Made by a program: the position numbers and the translations under genes | Notes under the pieces: generated by a model | What the model saw: only the letters and a program-made list of their open reading frames with translations | Database searches by the model: none | Told to the model about the DNA's origin: nothing | Part shown: one piece after another, positions 3,317 through 60,437 of the stretch | Position numbering within the stretch: the first letter of the stretch is position 1 | Layout of the letters: the number at the start of each line of letters is the position of its first letter | Source of the DNA: an uncultured Chthonomonas sp. | GTDB lineage: Bacteria > Armatimonadota > Chthonomonadetes > Chthonomonadales > CAJBBX01 | Assembly (NCBI GenBank): GCA_903885605.1 | Contig: CAISJD010000158.1 | Span: 1 to 64,000 of the forward strand | Length of the DNA stretch: 64,000 bases | Direction: 5' to 3'

Positions 3317-3342
3317 GGGGCCGGAACCCAGGTTCCGGCCCC
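3317..3342 (-). terminator. Terminator-like hairpin after the 605-aa hypothetical gene
   Basis: Perfect 11-bp stem (ggggccggaac / gttccggcccc) with a CCAG loop, 12 nt past the stop of the minus-strand hypothetical gene and upstream of gltX. There is no T-run on either side, so it would be a non-canonical terminator or an RNA-stabilising 3' end. Confidence 0.5.
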
Positions 3343-42095: not shown

Positions 42096-42204
42096 CCCCA
42101 CCTTCGATCGGGCTCGCCTCGCTCCCGAGGGTGCGAGGCGAGCCGGTCGAGCCCCGGATACCCCTGCGTCGTCCGCATCGTCGGGCTCCGCTGAGGAACC
42201 GCCT

Positions 42205-54319: not shown

Positions 54320-55657
54320 GTGCGCCGCCCGCCGTTGCTGGGCCTGCCCGTCGTGGCGGTCGATCCGGGTTCCCCGGCGCATGACGCAGGCATCGCGCCC
54401 GGCGACCTGGTCCGCGCAGTGGACGGCGTCCCGATCAGCGACCTGCTGGACTTCCAGTTCCGCACGGCCGACGGCGCCCGCACGCTCACGGTAGTGCGCG
54501 GCGGCGCCGACCTGGAGCTACGGGTGGCCTTTGAAGCGGGGGAGGACGCGGGCCTGGAGTTCGGTGAAGAGTTGGCCGACGGCATCCACTCCTGCGTCAA
54601 CAAGTGCGTCTTCTGCTTCATCCACCAGATGCCGCGGGGCATGCGCCGCTCACTCTATGTGATGGACGACGACTTCCGGCTCTCCTTCACCCACGGCAAC
54701 TACGTCACGCTCACGAACCTGACGCCGGAGGAGTTCGACCGCATCCTGGAGCAGCGCCTGTCGCCGCTCTATGTCTCCGTGCATGCCACCGATCCCGACC
54801 TGCGCGGCCGCCTGCTGGGCAAGAAGGAGCCCGCGCCGATCCTGCCCGCGCTACGGACGCTGGCCGAGCATCGGATCGATGTCAACGCTCAGGTGGTGCT
54901 ATGCCCCGGCCTCAACGACGGTGCGGCCCTGCGCCGGACCGTGCATGAGTTGGCCGAGCTCCACCCCGGCGCCTCGGGCCTGCGTTGCGGCGTGCAGTCC
55001 GTGGCCGTCGTGCCGGTGGGTCTCACGCGTTTCCGGGAGCGTCTGCCGAAGCTCGAGGCCGCCGATGCCGCCTACGCCGCGGCCATGCTGCGCGAGGTCA
55101 CCCGCTGGGGCGTCGCCCTGGCCCGGCGCATCGGCACCCGCTTCGTCTGGCTATCGGATGAGTGGTACAACCTGGCCGCCAAGCCCGTGCCCTCGGCCCG
55201 GCACTATGAGGATTTCCCGCAGTACGAAGACGGCGTGGGCACGATCCGCTCCTTCCTCGACGCCGCCCGCCGGGTGGAGCGCCGCCTGCCGCCCGAGGCC
55301 GCCGCGCCGGTGACGGGGTCTGTGATCACCGCAAGGCTGGCCGCTCCGGTGGTCTCCAGCTTCGTGGATCGCCTCAATGCCGTGGAGGGCGTCTCCCTGC
55401 AGACGCTCGTCGTTACCAACCGCTTCTTCGGTGATACCATCAACGTGGCAGGCCTGATGACCGGTCAGGACATCCTCGCCACCCTTTGCGAACATCCCGG
55501 CCCCGGCCCTGTCTACCTGCCCTCCATCTGCGTGAAGGATGGCGACATCTTCCTGGACGATATGACGGTGGGCGGCCTCGCCTCCGCCACGGGCCGCCGG
55601 ATCATCATCGTCGATATCACCCCAGCCTCCCTGGCGCAGGCTGTCGGCCTCCTCTAG
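54320..55657 (+). CDS. DUF512 protein: PDZ domain plus radical-SAM-like Fe-S domain
   Basis: 445 aa. N-terminal PDZ-like module (VVAVDPGSPAHDAGIAPGDLVRAVDG), a cysteine motif CVNKCVFCFI near residue 92 that recalls radical-SAM CxxxCxxC, a TIM-barrel-like middle (FTHGNYVTLTNLT, PLYVSVHATDPDLR, VVLCPGLNDG) and the C-terminal DUF512 region. Family members are widespread but uncharacterised. It begins with GTG directly after the cimA stop behind GAGGG, so it closes the operon. Confidence 0.9.
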   Translation: MRRPPLLGLPVVAVDPGSPAHDAGIAPGDLVRAVDGVPISDLLDFQFRTADGARTLTVVRGGADLELRVAFEAGEDAGLEFGEELADGIHSCVNKCVFCFIHQMPRGMRRSLYVMDDDFRLSFTHGNYVTLTNLTPEEFDRILEQRLSPLYVSVHATDPDLRGRLLGKKEPAPILPALRTLAEHRIDVNAQVVLCPGLNDGAALRRTVHELAELHPGASGLRCGVQSVAVVPVGLTRFRERLPKLEAADAAYAAAMLREVTRWGVALARRIGTRFVWLSDEWYNLAAKPVPSARHYEDFPQYEDGVGTIRSFLDAARRVERRLPPEAAAPVTGSVITARLAAPVVSSFVDRLNAVEGVSLQTLVVTNRFFGDTINVAGLMTGQDILATLCEHPGPGPVYLPSICVKDGDIFLDDMTVGGLASATGRRIIIVDITPASLAQAVGLL

Positions 55658-55700
55658 CCGCCCTCGGCACGGCCTTCTCCCACCGCCGCCTGCGCCCCTT

Positions 55701-55759
55701 CAGGTTCTACGCCAGTTGCGTAGAACCTGTTGACATCTGCCTCCATATTGGTGTACAAA
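55701..55759 (+). promoter_or_regulatory. Promoter with overlapping inverted-repeat operator for imuB-dnaE2
   Basis: A perfect inverted repeat, caggttctac-N9-gtagaacctg (55701-55729), abuts a consensus TTGACA (55730-55735). An 18-nt spacer leads to TACAAA (55754-55759). The start would be near 55766, 39 nt before imuB. The placement suits a repressor; given the mutasome genes, LexA is the obvious candidate, but the repeat is not a known LexA consensus. Confidence 0.7.
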
Positions 55760-55804
55760 GATGCGTGTACTACCGCTCTCTGTCTACTCCAATGGGGTGC
55801 TCGC

Positions 55805-57223
55805 ATGTCCGTCGCGTGTTTCATCGTTCCGCATATGGGCGTCGTCGCTGCGTGCCGCCGCAGGCCGGATCTGGCCGGCTCGCCCCTGGCGTTGGTCGAT
55901 GAGAAAGGGCGCGTGGTCACGGTCTCGCCCGAGGCCGATCGGGCGGGGGTGCACCTGGGGCAGGCCGAGACGGCGGCGCGCTCCCTGTGCCGCGACCTGG
56001 TCGTGGTCCCGTATGACCGCGAGGGCGCGGATGAGGCGGCCCGGGAGATGTGGGACATCCTGGCCGTGGAGACCTCCTATGTGGAGCCTTCCTCGCCGGA
56101 GGTCTGCTATGCCGAGATCGCCGGGTTGCAGGTGCTGGAGCGCTCCGAGGTGGCCGCGGCGGCCATCCGCAGGCAGTTGGGCGGCCCCGTGCATGTGGGG
56201 CTCGGGCGTACGCTGTTCGTGGCCCGCATGGCCGCCCGGCAGGCGCGCGACGGGGTGGTGGCGGTCCCGTCCGGCATGGAGGCCGCCTTTCTGGCCCCCA
56301 TCCCTCTGGCAGGTGTGGAGGAGCTGGAGGGCAAGCTGAAGGATGCCCTGGCGCGGCTGGGCGTGAAGACGCTGGGCGACGTGGCCGCCCTGGACCGGCA
56401 AGACCTGAACCGCCGCTTCAAGGCCAACGGGGAGAAGCTCCGCGCCCTGGCATCCGGCGGTCCCCGGACGCCGGTTCGCCCCGTCTGGCCGCCCAGGTTC
56501 GTGGAGCGGCGCGCCCACTTCGACGACCGGGAGGTGGAGGACCTGCTCCTCATCGAGGAGGCCATGCGCCGATGCGCCGCCTCGGTCTCCGAGACGCTGC
56601 TGGCGGGGCACGAGTTCTGCCGGACCCTTACGCTCAGTGTCCGCTTTGCCGATAACACCTGGCAGGCCCTGCCGGAGCGCCTGGCCCTGCCGCTGAACAG
56701 GCCCGAACCCCTCTACCGCGCAGCGCTCCGTCTCTACAAGCGGATGGAGCCCGGGCGGCCCATCACAGAAGTGCGCCTCAGGGCCGCGGACCTGGGTCCT
56801 GCGGGCGGCATCCAGCTGGCCCTGCTGGATGACAACCAGTCCCAGCGCGGCCTCCCGCACGAGAGGAAGCGGCGCCTGCATAAGGCGCTGGAGACCATCG
56901 GGAAGCGGTTCGGGGCCGCCTGTGTGCGGCACGCCGGAGGCTTCGATACGGGCGGCAGGACGGACCTCTGGACCTACCCGCTGGGGCATCGCATGAACGT
57001 GCCGGTGGATGTGGTCACCAATGACGCCGGCGAGCCCGTCCGCTATCGCCTGCGTGAATGCTCCTGGGATGTCACCTCCATACAGAACCGATGGTGCGAA
57101 GCGGAATGGGATTGGGAGCGCATGCGCGAGCGCACGATCTACCGTGTGGAGACATGGCCCGCCGGCCTGTGCGAGCTTTCCAAGCAGGACGGTTCCTGGC
57201 GCATCGCCGCCATTGCCGACTGA
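55805..57223 (+). CDS. imuB: ImuB-like Y-family polymerase homologue, catalytic Asp residues missing
   Basis: 472 aa. The Y-family fold is visible (palm 1-~170, HhH VEELEGKLKDALARLGVKTLGDVAAL near 180-205, little finger to ~370) with a C-terminal ImuB-type tail (RECSWDVTSIQNRWCEAEWDW...RVETWPAGLCEL). The first active-site block, normally HxDxDxFyasVE, reads IVPHMGVVAACR, and the SxDE block reads SSPEVCYAE; so the metal-binding acids are lost, as in ImuB. ImuB acts as the scaffold of the DnaE2 mutasome. ATG 55805 is the start. dnaE2 follows by 10 nt; no imuA is present. Confidence 0.88.
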   Translation: MSVACFIVPHMGVVAACRRRPDLAGSPLALVDEKGRVVTVSPEADRAGVHLGQAETAARSLCRDLVVVPYDREGADEAAREMWDILAVETSYVEPSSPEVCYAEIAGLQVLERSEVAAAAIRRQLGGPVHVGLGRTLFVARMAARQARDGVVAVPSGMEAAFLAPIPLAGVEELEGKLKDALARLGVKTLGDVAALDRQDLNRRFKANGEKLRALASGGPRTPVRPVWPPRFVERRAHFDDREVEDLLLIEEAMRRCAASVSETLLAGHEFCRTLTLSVRFADNTWQALPERLALPLNRPEPLYRAALRLYKRMEPGRPITEVRLRAADLGPAGGIQLALLDDNQSQRGLPHERKRRLHKALETIGKRFGAACVRHAGGFDTGGRTDLWTYPLGHRMNVPVDVVTNDAGEPVRYRLRECSWDVTSIQNRWCEAEWDWERMRERTIYRVETWPAGLCELSKQDGSWRIAAIAD

Positions 57224-57233
57224 GGCGGAGCCA

Positions 57234-60200
57234 ATGTTCGTCCATCTGCACACCCATAGCCCCTACAGCTTCCTTGACGGCGCCACGGAGGTCGAGCGCC
57301 TGGTCCGCCGCGCCGCCGAGCTGGGCATGCCCGCCATGGCCCTCACCGACCACGACAACCTCTGCGGCATGGTCAAGTTCACGTCCGCCTGCCGCAATTA
57401 CGGCGTCCGGCCCATCCTGGGCGCCGAGGTCACCATGGAGGACCAGAGCCATCTCACGCTCCTGGCGCTGGATTCCACCGGCTACTCCAACCTCTGCTCC
57501 CTGCTGACCCGCACCCATGCCAACGGGGGGCGCCTCAACCCGCTGCTGCCCTGGAACGCGCTGCCCGAGCGGGCCTCGGGCCTCGTCTGCCTCACCGGCT
57601 GCCGCAAGGGGCAGATACCCTCCCTGGTGCGCCGCCGCGAGCACGCCCAGGCCGCAGAACGCGCCATGGAGCTGCGCCGCATCTTCGGCCGGTCGGGGCT
57701 GGTGGTGGAGATGCAGGATGACATGACGCCCGACAGCCGACGCGTCTGCGCCGACCTTCAGGCACTGGCGGGGCAGCTCGGCGTGCGCGCCGTGGCCACC
57801 AACAACGTGCACCATGCCGGCCGCGACGGCTACGCCACCTACGACATCCTCAAGTGCATCCAGGCCTGCATCCCGGTCTCGGAGCCGCACCGGAACCGGC
57901 CGCTGAACGCCGAGCGCTACCTCAAGTCCGCGGCCGAGATGGAGGATCTCTTCGGCTGGGCGCCGCAGGTTCTGGCCGATACGGCCTCCGTGGCCCTGGA
58001 GTGCGGCGACGTGCTCCCCTCGGCGTGCGATATCACACCCCGCTACCCCGTGCCCAACGGAGGCGACGACGCCTCCTACCTGCGTCACCTCACCTACAAG
58101 GGCGCCGCCTACCGATACGGCCCCCTCAGCGACGCAGTGCGGACGCGCATCGAGCACGAGCTGGCGCTCATCATCGAAATGGGCTATGCCGGATACTTCC
58201 TCATGGTCTGGGACATCGTGCGCTGGGCGAGGCGGCAGGGCATCCGATGCACCGGCCGGGGCTCCGCCGCCGACTCCTGCGTGGCCTACTGCCTCTACCT
58301 GACGGATGTGGATGTCATCTCGCGCAACCTCCCCTTCGCCCGTTTCCTGGTGCCCGGCAAGACGCCGGATATCGACATCGACTTTCCAAGCGATAAGCGT
58401 GACGATGTCTTCCGGCATATCGCGGAGCTCTACGGCCAGGAGTGCGTGGGCATGGTCTGCACCTTCCACACCTTCTGGTCGCGGTCGGCCGTGCGCGACG
58501 TGGGCAAGGCGCTGGCCCTGCCCACCGAGGCCCTCAACTTCCTGGCCAAGCGGCTACACCACAGCGTCCGCGCGGATCGCATCTCGGAGGCCTTCGACCG
58601 CTTCTCCGAACTGCGCGAGCACAAAGCCCTCCGTGAGCGGTTTGAGCTGCTCATGCGCCTCTGCAAGGGCCTTGCCGGCTTTCCGCGGCACATCGGCACG
58701 CATTCGTCCGGCATCGTCATCAGCCGGATGCCGCTGGAGCGCATCGCGCCGCTGCAGCCCTCGGCGCGGGGCATCACGCGCATCTGGACGCTGGACAAGG
58801 ACGATGCCGAGGATATCGGCGCCATCAAGTTCGATGTGCTCTCCCTGGGCGCACTGGCCGCGGTGGGCGACGCCGAGAGCGAAGCGCGGCTCCACGACCC
58901 CGGCTTCAGCTATGACCGCATTCCCTTCGACGACCGCGAGACCTATCGCATGCTCCAGGCCGGCGCGGCCGTGGGCACGTTCCAGTTCGAGAGTTCCGCC
59001 CAGATGTCGCTGGCCGTCACCCTCCACCCGCGCCACTTCGAGGACCTGGTGGCCGCCGTGGCCCTCATTCGCCCGGGGCCGATCCGCGGCAATGTGGTCC
59101 GCCGGTTCGTGGGCTGCCGCAACGGATGGATGCGGACCGATGTGCTACACCCGGCCCTGCTCAAGACGCTGGCCAAGACCTACGGATGCATCGTCTTCCA
59201 GGAGCAGGTGAACGATGTGGTCGCCGCCATGACCGGTTGCTCGGACGCCGAGGCGGACAAGTTCCGCAAGAGCCTCACCAAGTACGACCGCACCGGCGCC
59301 ATGGATGACGCCCGCACCACCTTCGTGACCCGGGCCATGGAGCGCCACCCCGACCTGACCGACGATGCGGCCAACTCCATCTTCGACCAGATCGAGGGCT
59401 GGAGCGGCTACGGCTTCACCGAGGGGCACGCGGCCAGCTTCTCGGTCACCGGGTACCGCACGGCCTTCCTCTCCACGCACCACCCAGCCGAGTTCTTCTC
59501 AGGCATCATGAACCACCAGCCCATGGGCTACTACGCCAGCAACACGCTGGCCTCCGAGGCGCGGCGCCGGGGCGTGCGCGTGCTGCCCGTGGATATCAAC
59601 ATCAGCGACGACAAGTGCCGCGTGCCGGACCCGGCCACCATCCGCCTGGGGCTGCGCATCGTTGAAGGGCTGGCGGAGGAGGATATCGAGGCCATCCTGG
59701 CGGCGCGCGGGCAGGAGCCCTTCGTCTCGCTGCTGGACTTCTGCACGCGGGTCGTGATGCACCGCGACCGGCTGGAGAACCTGCTCCTCTGCGGTGCGTT
59801 CGATAGCCTGCACGAGGTGCGCCGAGGGCTCCTCTGGCGGCTGGATGAGACCCTCTCGCTGGCCTCGGTCCGGCGCATGGCGGCTGCGAACGCGCCCGGC
59901 ACGCTGCCGCTGGAGCCGCCCGGCGCATCGGAGACGCCCGTGGCCTGGGATGTGCCGGACTTCAGCGTCTGGGATCGCTTCCTCTGGACCTGGCGCGTCA
60001 CCGGCGTCTGCGCCGAGTGTCACGTGCTGGCCTACATGCGCGACTGGCTGGCCACACGCGGCGTCATGACGGTGCAGGAGGCCCTGGCGGTCCGGCCGGG
60101 GACGCGAGTGAACGTGGCAGGCATCAACGTGCGGCCCCACCGCCCACCCACGCGCTCGGGCCGCACGGTGCTCTTCACCCAGGTTGAGGATGAGACCGGC

Positions 60201-60437
60201 CTGCTCCAGGCGACCTGTGCCGGTGAGGCGCTGGACCCATGCACACCCATCTTCCTCACGTCGCCCGTGGTCATCGTCCGGGGAGCCATGCAGAGCAAGG
60301 GCTCCGGCATGAGCATGAAGGTGGAGAAGGTGCGGAGCCTGGCCCTACGGGACATGACGACTGCGGGAGCCACGCCCCAGCCGCCGCCCGAGATGGCTCC
60401 GGAACTGGAGAAGTTGCTGGTGCAGGTGAGCCGGTAG
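57234..60437 (+). CDS. dnaE2: Error-prone DNA polymerase III alpha-like subunit
   Basis: 1067 aa C-family polymerase. PHP domain (HLHTHSPYSFLDG; MALTDHDNLCGMVKF), active-site acids in GKTPDIDIDFPSDKRDD (near 385), GFPRHIGTHSSGIVIS, and YGCIVFQEQVNDV, then a C-terminal OB fold (VNVAGINVRPHRPPTRSGRTVLFTQVEDETG). Length and the RxGxxSP-like features fit DnaE2 of the translesion mutasome, as does the adjacent imuB. ATG 57234 replaces the listed 57009. It ends 7 nt before the converging maf gene. Confidence 0.95.
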   Translation: MFVHLHTHSPYSFLDGATEVERLVRRAAELGMPAMALTDHDNLCGMVKFTSACRNYGVRPILGAEVTMEDQSHLTLLALDSTGYSNLCSLLTRTHANGGRLNPLLPWNALPERASGLVCLTGCRKGQIPSLVRRREHAQAAERAMELRRIFGRSGLVVEMQDDMTPDSRRVCADLQALAGQLGVRAVATNNVHHAGRDGYATYDILKCIQACIPVSEPHRNRPLNAERYLKSAAEMEDLFGWAPQVLADTASVALECGDVLPSACDITPRYPVPNGGDDASYLRHLTYKGAAYRYGPLSDAVRTRIEHELALIIEMGYAGYFLMVWDIVRWARRQGIRCTGRGSAADSCVAYCLYLTDVDVISRNLPFARFLVPGKTPDIDIDFPSDKRDDVFRHIAELYGQECVGMVCTFHTFWSRSAVRDVGKALALPTEALNFLAKRLHHSVRADRISEAFDRFSELREHKALRERFELLMRLCKGLAGFPRHIGTHSSGIVISRMPLERIAPLQPSARGITRIWTLDKDDAEDIGAIKFDVLSLGALAAVGDAESEARLHDPGFSYDRIPFDDRETYRMLQAGAAVGTFQFESSAQMSLAVTLHPRHFEDLVAAVALIRPGPIRGNVVRRFVGCRNGWMRTDVLHPALLKTLAKTYGCIVFQEQVNDVVAAMTGCSDAEADKFRKSLTKYDRTGAMDDARTTFVTRAMERHPDLTDDAANSIFDQIEGWSGYGFTEGHAASFSVTGYRTAFLSTHHPAEFFSGIMNHQPMGYYASNTLASEARRRGVRVLPVDINISDDKCRVPDPATIRLGLRIVEGLAEEDIEAILAARGQEPFVSLLDFCTRVVMHRDRLENLLLCGAFDSLHEVRRGLLWRLDETLSLASVRRMAAANAPGTLPLEPPGASETPVAWDVPDFSVWDRFLWTWRVTGVCAECHVLAYMRDWLATRGVMTVQEALAVRPGTRVNVAGINVRPHRPPTRSGRTVLFTQVEDETGLLQATCAGEALDPCTPIFLTSPVVIVRGAMQSKGSGMSMKVEKVRSLALRDMTTAGATPQPPPEMAPELEKLLVQVSR

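Follow-up and report, generated by a model that had tools for sequence, protein, structure and literature searches.

The window analysed here, a stretch of 64,000 nucleotides from an uncultured Chthonomonas sp., carries an imuB-dnaE2 operon whose two mutasome genes, already named in a preliminary description of this DNA, are confirmed by Pfam as encoding an ImuB-type Y-family protein and a DnaE2-type Pol III alpha subunit. The operon, the gene upstream and the features between them are as follows.

54320-55657, + strand: upstream gene encoding a PDZ / radical-SAM-like / DUF512 protein (Pfam), the presumed owner of the hairpin
55701-55729, no strand assigned: perfect inverted repeat with 12-nt arms and a 5-nt loop, proposed to be a U-tract-less 3'-end hairpin of the radical-SAM/DUF512 gene
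55706-55719, no strand assigned: left-arm core TCTACGCCAGTTGC, aligned to TCTACGCAATTGC of the sister genomes
55730-55735, + strand: TTGACA, the -35 hexamer for imuB-dnaE2, unchanged in the two same-genus genomes
55750-55767, + strand: candidate degenerate LexA box GGTGTAC-AAAG-ATGCGTG over the -10, the top match in the promoter (6.1 bits)
55754-55759, + strand: -10-like hexamer TACAAA, after an 18-nt spacer from TTGACA, with the block GGTGTACAAAGATGnGTGTA kept in the genus
55782-55788, - strand: AGTAGAC half-site in the imuB leader, a possible second LexA contact by its rank with an asymmetric matrix
55805-57223, + strand: imuB (Pfam IMS and IMS_C)
57234-60437, + strand: dnaE2 (Pfam DNA_pol3_alpha, PHP, finger and HHH_6)

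There is no imuA-like gene beside imuB-dnaE2 between 54320 and 60437; the neighbours are the radical-SAM/DUF512 gene upstream and, downstream on the opposite strand, a Maf-like gene. The window belongs to an Armatimonadota genome: ImuB proteins 96% identical to this one are encoded by two MAGs, one assigned to Armatimonadetes and originating from Lac Pavin, the other to Chthonomonas sp. When the promoter is aligned with those of the two same-genus genomes (G001 and G002), TTGACATC and GGTGTACAAAGATG are retained in both and the right arm of the repeat is missing, the sequence reading GCGTAGAACCTG in the window versus CCTGnnGACAGG in the sisters. TTGACATC is fully conserved in the genus, as is GGTGTACAAAGATGnGTGTA except for one variable column. 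Conservation of the left-arm core is partial (TCTACGC-A-T; GTCTACGCAATTGC in the sisters).

The inverted repeat upstream of imuB

The repeat had been described as two 10-bp arms separated by nine nucleotides and touching the -35, which is exact: CAGGTTCTAC (55701-55710) and GTAGAACCTG (55720-55729) flank N9, and TTGACA (55730-55735) abuts the 3' end. Its true extent is larger, since N9 conceals two more pairs, giving 12-nt arms around a 5-nt loop (CAGGTTCTACGC-CAGTT-GCGTAGAACCTG). The window contains two perfect repeats whose arms reach 12 nt or more and whose loops measure 3-20 nt, as compared to 0.33 on average in 12 sequences simulated with a first-order Markov model, so the repeat exceeds chance but is not unique in the window; the other, at 42111-42144, also lies shortly past a gene end. 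The predicted RNA fold of 55658-55740 has an energy of -30.6 kcal/mol (z = -3.5).

This repeat is very unlikely to be what it had been suggested to be, an undescribed LexA box of the lineage. Three features speak for that proposal. The arms hold GTAGAA/TTCTAC, one base off the lineage half-site GTAGAC discussed below; the repeat is in contact with the -35; and the intergenic gap holds six half-sites with at most one mismatch from GTAGAC versus 1.1 expected, a number matched by 0.1% of equal-sized stretches, two of the six being the hairpin arms themselves. Against it, the half-sites in the repeat are everted and wrongly spaced, so that as a LexA box it scores -10 to -32 bits, far under background, and the lineage LexA box is a different sequence. 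Allowing up to three mismatches, there is no copy in the genome besides 55701-55729 and none in seven same-family genomes (G001-G007); one match with three mismatches in a genome of the same order (G013) needs no explanation other than chance. The repeat is absent upstream of lexA, recA (200 bp before the gene) and uvrA, and at orthologous imuB operons the right arm is missing in both same-genus genomes and no repeat is found in other genera. Because it is a single copy with an unconserved right arm, we do not regard it as an operator.

The location of the repeat points elsewhere. It begins 44 nt past the stop codon (55657) of the radical-SAM/DUF512 gene and, with its 12-bp stem, has the stable GC-containing stem-loop past a stop codon that is expected of a terminator. 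Perfect repeats with arms of at least 9 and loops of 3-12 nt were counted in 442 kb of this genome (the window and 20 loci). Their density is 1.16/kb in the 60 nt around gene 3' ends, as compared to 0.24/kb in the remaining intergenic DNA and 0.079/kb in coding sequence, with genes called by a home-made codon-score method that makes 3'-end distances somewhat error-prone. This enrichment, which is based on 21 intergenic repeats in one genome, has a binomial p of 4e-4, or 1.1e-3 leaving out the repeat at 55701-55729. Two other hairpins of the window, at 42111-42144 and 3317-3342, are long, perfect and shortly past gene 3' ends, and lack T-runs. In the same gap as our repeat, G002 has an unrelated 7-bp hairpin (CTCGGGC-CTCCGT-GCCCGAG) 36 nt ahead of TTGACA, while in G001 no perfect hairpin there reaches an arm length of 7. 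The G002 hairpin recurs unchanged at a 3' end in this genome (L200:5290); the identical copies CTCGGGCCTCCGTGCCCGAG at L200:5290 and L003:5044, each close to the 3' end of a gene and in separate species of the genus, may be a dispersed 3'-end element. We read the repeat as a 3'-end hairpin because its class clusters at gene 3' ends, because it lies 44 nt past the stop codon and because in G002 the gap holds an alternative hairpin. A textbook intrinsic terminator it is not, because it has no U-tract: the stem is followed by TTGACATC instead, and a terminator scan finds no terminator-like site there. Most other 3'-end repeats likewise have no T-run, and hairpins with T-runs show no enrichment in two 20-kb stretches (5 vs. 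5.2 expected, and 1 vs. 5.2).

Two other explanations of the dyad have to be weighed here. The first, which we consider unlikely, is that it is a recent and functionless mutation, in which the left arm (ancestrally GTCTACGCAATTGC) was copied by template switching to give a perfect palindrome. This would fit the perfect symmetry, the homology of the left core to the sisters and the replacement of the right arm, and about one such repeat is expected per three random 64-kb sequences; however, the concentration of the class at gene 3' ends is not expected from chance or mutation alone. The second, which seems to us quite unlikely, is that the repeat is an operator of another regulator, such as a damage-responsive activator just upstream of the -35. 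The abutting position would suit an activator, the sisters conserve the left-arm core, and uvrA promoters of several genera have GTCTAC upstream of the -35, but the repeat is unique in the genome and the dyad is not conserved in sister species despite their 96% identical ImuB. Conservation of TCTACGC in the left-arm core, which a free-standing terminator does not require, also counts against the hairpin reading.

A putative LexA box in one branch of the Armatimonadota

The idea that this lineage has an undescribed LexA box fails for the repeat but survives in another form, in that GTAGAC-N4-GTCTAC, which is apparently undescribed, seems to be the LexA box of the lineage. Throughout the order it occurs at lexA, in several other genera also at imuB, and in this genus at dnaA. 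The genome has a single LexA, which retains the AAG cleavage site, the GDSM serine and the VKR lysine, and its lexA promoter reads TTGACA-GTAGACGCCTGTAAGTG-TACACT. At lexA, AGTAGAC is directly behind the -35 in family f1 and directly behind the -10 in family f3, and these two promoter positions therefore favour an operator over a promoter element. Searched de novo, the imuB promoters by themselves give TAGTAGACa.ATaTA.AC, and a palindromic matrix whose training set held just the lexA and dnaA sites identifies strong imuB sites in other genera, including AGTATACTACTGTCTACT (G005, 21.9 bits), AGCAGACTTTTGTATACT (G018, 20.6 bits) and AGTAGACAAAAATACACT (G016, 17.4 bits), with further sites at 12 to 15 bits.

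The dnaA palindrome, AGTAGAC-TTCA-GTCTACT (AGTAGACTTCAGTCTACT; L214:3550-3567, contig C116 of this genome, G000), lies ~230 bp ahead of the start of the DnaA match and is kept at equal distance in G001 (CGTAGACTTCAGTCTGTC) and G002 (AGTAGATGTTTGTCTACA) despite differing flanks, a sign that LexA may control dnaA or a transcript next to it. Across the genome itself, AGTAGAC-N4-GT is not enriched (29 matches vs. 32 for the control), and outside long ORFs it occurs only at lexA and dnaA, a third match (C129) being slightly past a gene start; the regulon is therefore small or its sites degenerate. A strong LexA-like site, ATTAGACGGCTGTCTACT (L215:11596-11613, contig C129), is seen upstream of a small ORF, and other intergenic high scorers (in L202, L204, L209 and L215) adjoin a peptidase M48 gene, an integrase gene and other genes.

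In this genus, no lineage box is seen at uvrA or just upstream of recA; recA sits behind other genes, and we did not judge the GTAGAC/GTCTAC words farther upstream to be promoter sites. In G004, G007, G009, G019 and G023 (loci L113, L131, L111, L120 and L122), an isolated GTCTACT, whose second half-site is absent, is found upstream of uvrA ~24 nt ahead of a -10 (TAGAAT), and may be either a LexA half-site or another element. A de novo motif search of uvrA and recA upstream regions returned only coding-sequence motifs, because the regions were untrimmed and not purely intergenic.

The box is associated with the recognition helix of LexA. All readable LexA of families f1, f2, f3, f6 and f14 have the helix SLRGVTVHL, whereas the other readable families have SS(S)xTVxxHL; elsewhere in the Armatimonadota, SSSxTVxxHL helices go with (A/G)AAC-N4-GTTT boxes. 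GTAGAC is present within 150 bp of lexA in 25 of 31 SLRGVTVHL genomes versus one of 16 others, and the canonical (A/G)AAC-N4-GTT(T/C) is at lexA in none of the 31 versus 10 of the 16. The six exceptions with SLRGVTVHL include the near misses AGCAGAC (G006) and AGTAGATT (G015). One branch of the LexA tree divides the two helix groups with a support of 100/100, and the switch of helix and box is probably a single event, which is why a Fisher p of 1e-6 overstates the independence of these counts. We therefore consider it likely that one well-supported branch of the Armatimonadota, comprising the order of the window and two further families, swapped (A/G)AAC-N4-GTTT, the box of the remaining phylum, for GTAGAC-N4-GTCTAC along with a one-time change of the helix to SLRGVTVHL, and that the new box governs lexA and the ImuB-DnaE2 mutasome and, within this genus, also dnaA. 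If true, GTAGAC-N4-GTCTAC would add to the 17 LexA-binding motifs counted in the accessible text of PMC8565304, where it is not named among them. It is probably new as a LexA motif, and a search of open-licence papers turned up no relevant work on LexA or SOS in Armatimonadetes, Armatimonadota or Chthonomonas.

A candidate LexA site at the imuB promoter and comparison with known systems

The most likely LexA box at imuB in the window is the putative degenerate site at 55750-55767. Its score of 6.1 bits, from a model trained without this genus, corresponds to 0.07 expected occurrences per 147 intergenic bp, but only the left half is good, and because the right half is poor the evidence for the site is moderate. 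In G001 and G002 the top site is at the equivalent position (4.0 bits), and at imuB in G006 (AGTGTACATATATACACG) and G009 (AGTGTACATATATAGACG) the box likewise overlaps the -10. The GTGTAC direct repeat that had been put forward as a second candidate is present in both copies (55751-55756 and 55765-55770), and the copy at 55751 falls inside this best LexA-like site of the promoter. By an asymmetric 20-mer matrix derived from lexA, two sites in the imuB leader are in the top ten of the 64 kb, and the 20-nt site at 55769-55788 on the - strand, which includes the AGTAGAC half-site, ranks sixth; the exact half-site at 55782-55788 is unconserved in the sister genomes. Palindromic models, which we trust above the asymmetric matrix, support only the -10 site.

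A further explanation connects this site with the repeat. The left-arm core, where the sisters have GTCTAC, might be an upstream LexA half-site that has decayed and cooperates with the -10 site, the hairpin having grown from the core. In line with this, both G001 and G002 have a perfect GTCTAC at nearly the distance to the -35 seen in the window, and similar isolated GTCTAC sites occur at uvrA in five genera, but the second half at N4 is missing, the critical C is lost in the window copy, and palindromic models give low scores to the sites of G001 and G002, which together make the explanation decidedly improbable.

The reading that we prefer, with slightly better than even confidence, is that the repeat is a U-tract-less 3'-end hairpin and not an imuB operator, and that imuB-dnaE2 is repressed by LexA at 55750-55767. 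The repeat would fold as a stem-loop in the 3' end of the mRNA of the upstream gene, where it would be either a terminator without a U-tract or a 3'-end mark or protection blocking read-through into imuB. That the hairpin ends where the -35 of imuB starts would be a coincidence, the hairpin having no part as a mutasome operator. LexA would sit over the -10 on a degenerate GTAGAC-N4-GTCTAC and repress the operon, which would be released upon DNA damage by self-cleavage of LexA. The geometry of the hairpin, its position 44 nt from the stop codon, its absence elsewhere, the 3'-end enrichment of its class, the lineage box and the association of box and helix are read directly from the DNA. That the hairpin has termination activity, that LexA binds, and that the operon is repressed and induced are inferences.

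While the inverted repeat is in itself ordinary, the box that came to light as a by-product matters more. First, it is a concrete candidate SOS operator for a phylum for which we found no description of the damage response in the open-licence literature. Second, the apparent single switch of box and helix offers a clean case of a repressor changing specificity without loss of its regulon. Third, if dnaA does have a LexA site, damage would be tied directly to replication initiation.

Comparison with known systems highlights both similarities and differences. Like intrinsic (Rho-independent) terminators, the repeat is a stable stem-loop soon past a stop codon, of a class enriched at gene 3' ends; unlike them, it has no T-run after the stem. 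The lineage box resembles the Gram-positive LexA box GAAC-N4-GTTC in being an N4 dyad with an AC-N4-GT core located at lexA and imuB, and the lineage LexA belongs to the same autocleaving family. However, its half-site is GTAGAC/GTCTAC and not CGAAC, and its helix is SLRGVTVHL and not SSSxTVxxHL. The cyanobacterial LexA box is of the AGTAC-N4-GTTC type. It too is an N4 dyad, and the imuB box of G022 (GTGTAC-TTTA-GTACAC) resembles it, although the lineage consensus at lexA and dnaA differs in being GTAGAC-N4-GTCTAC.
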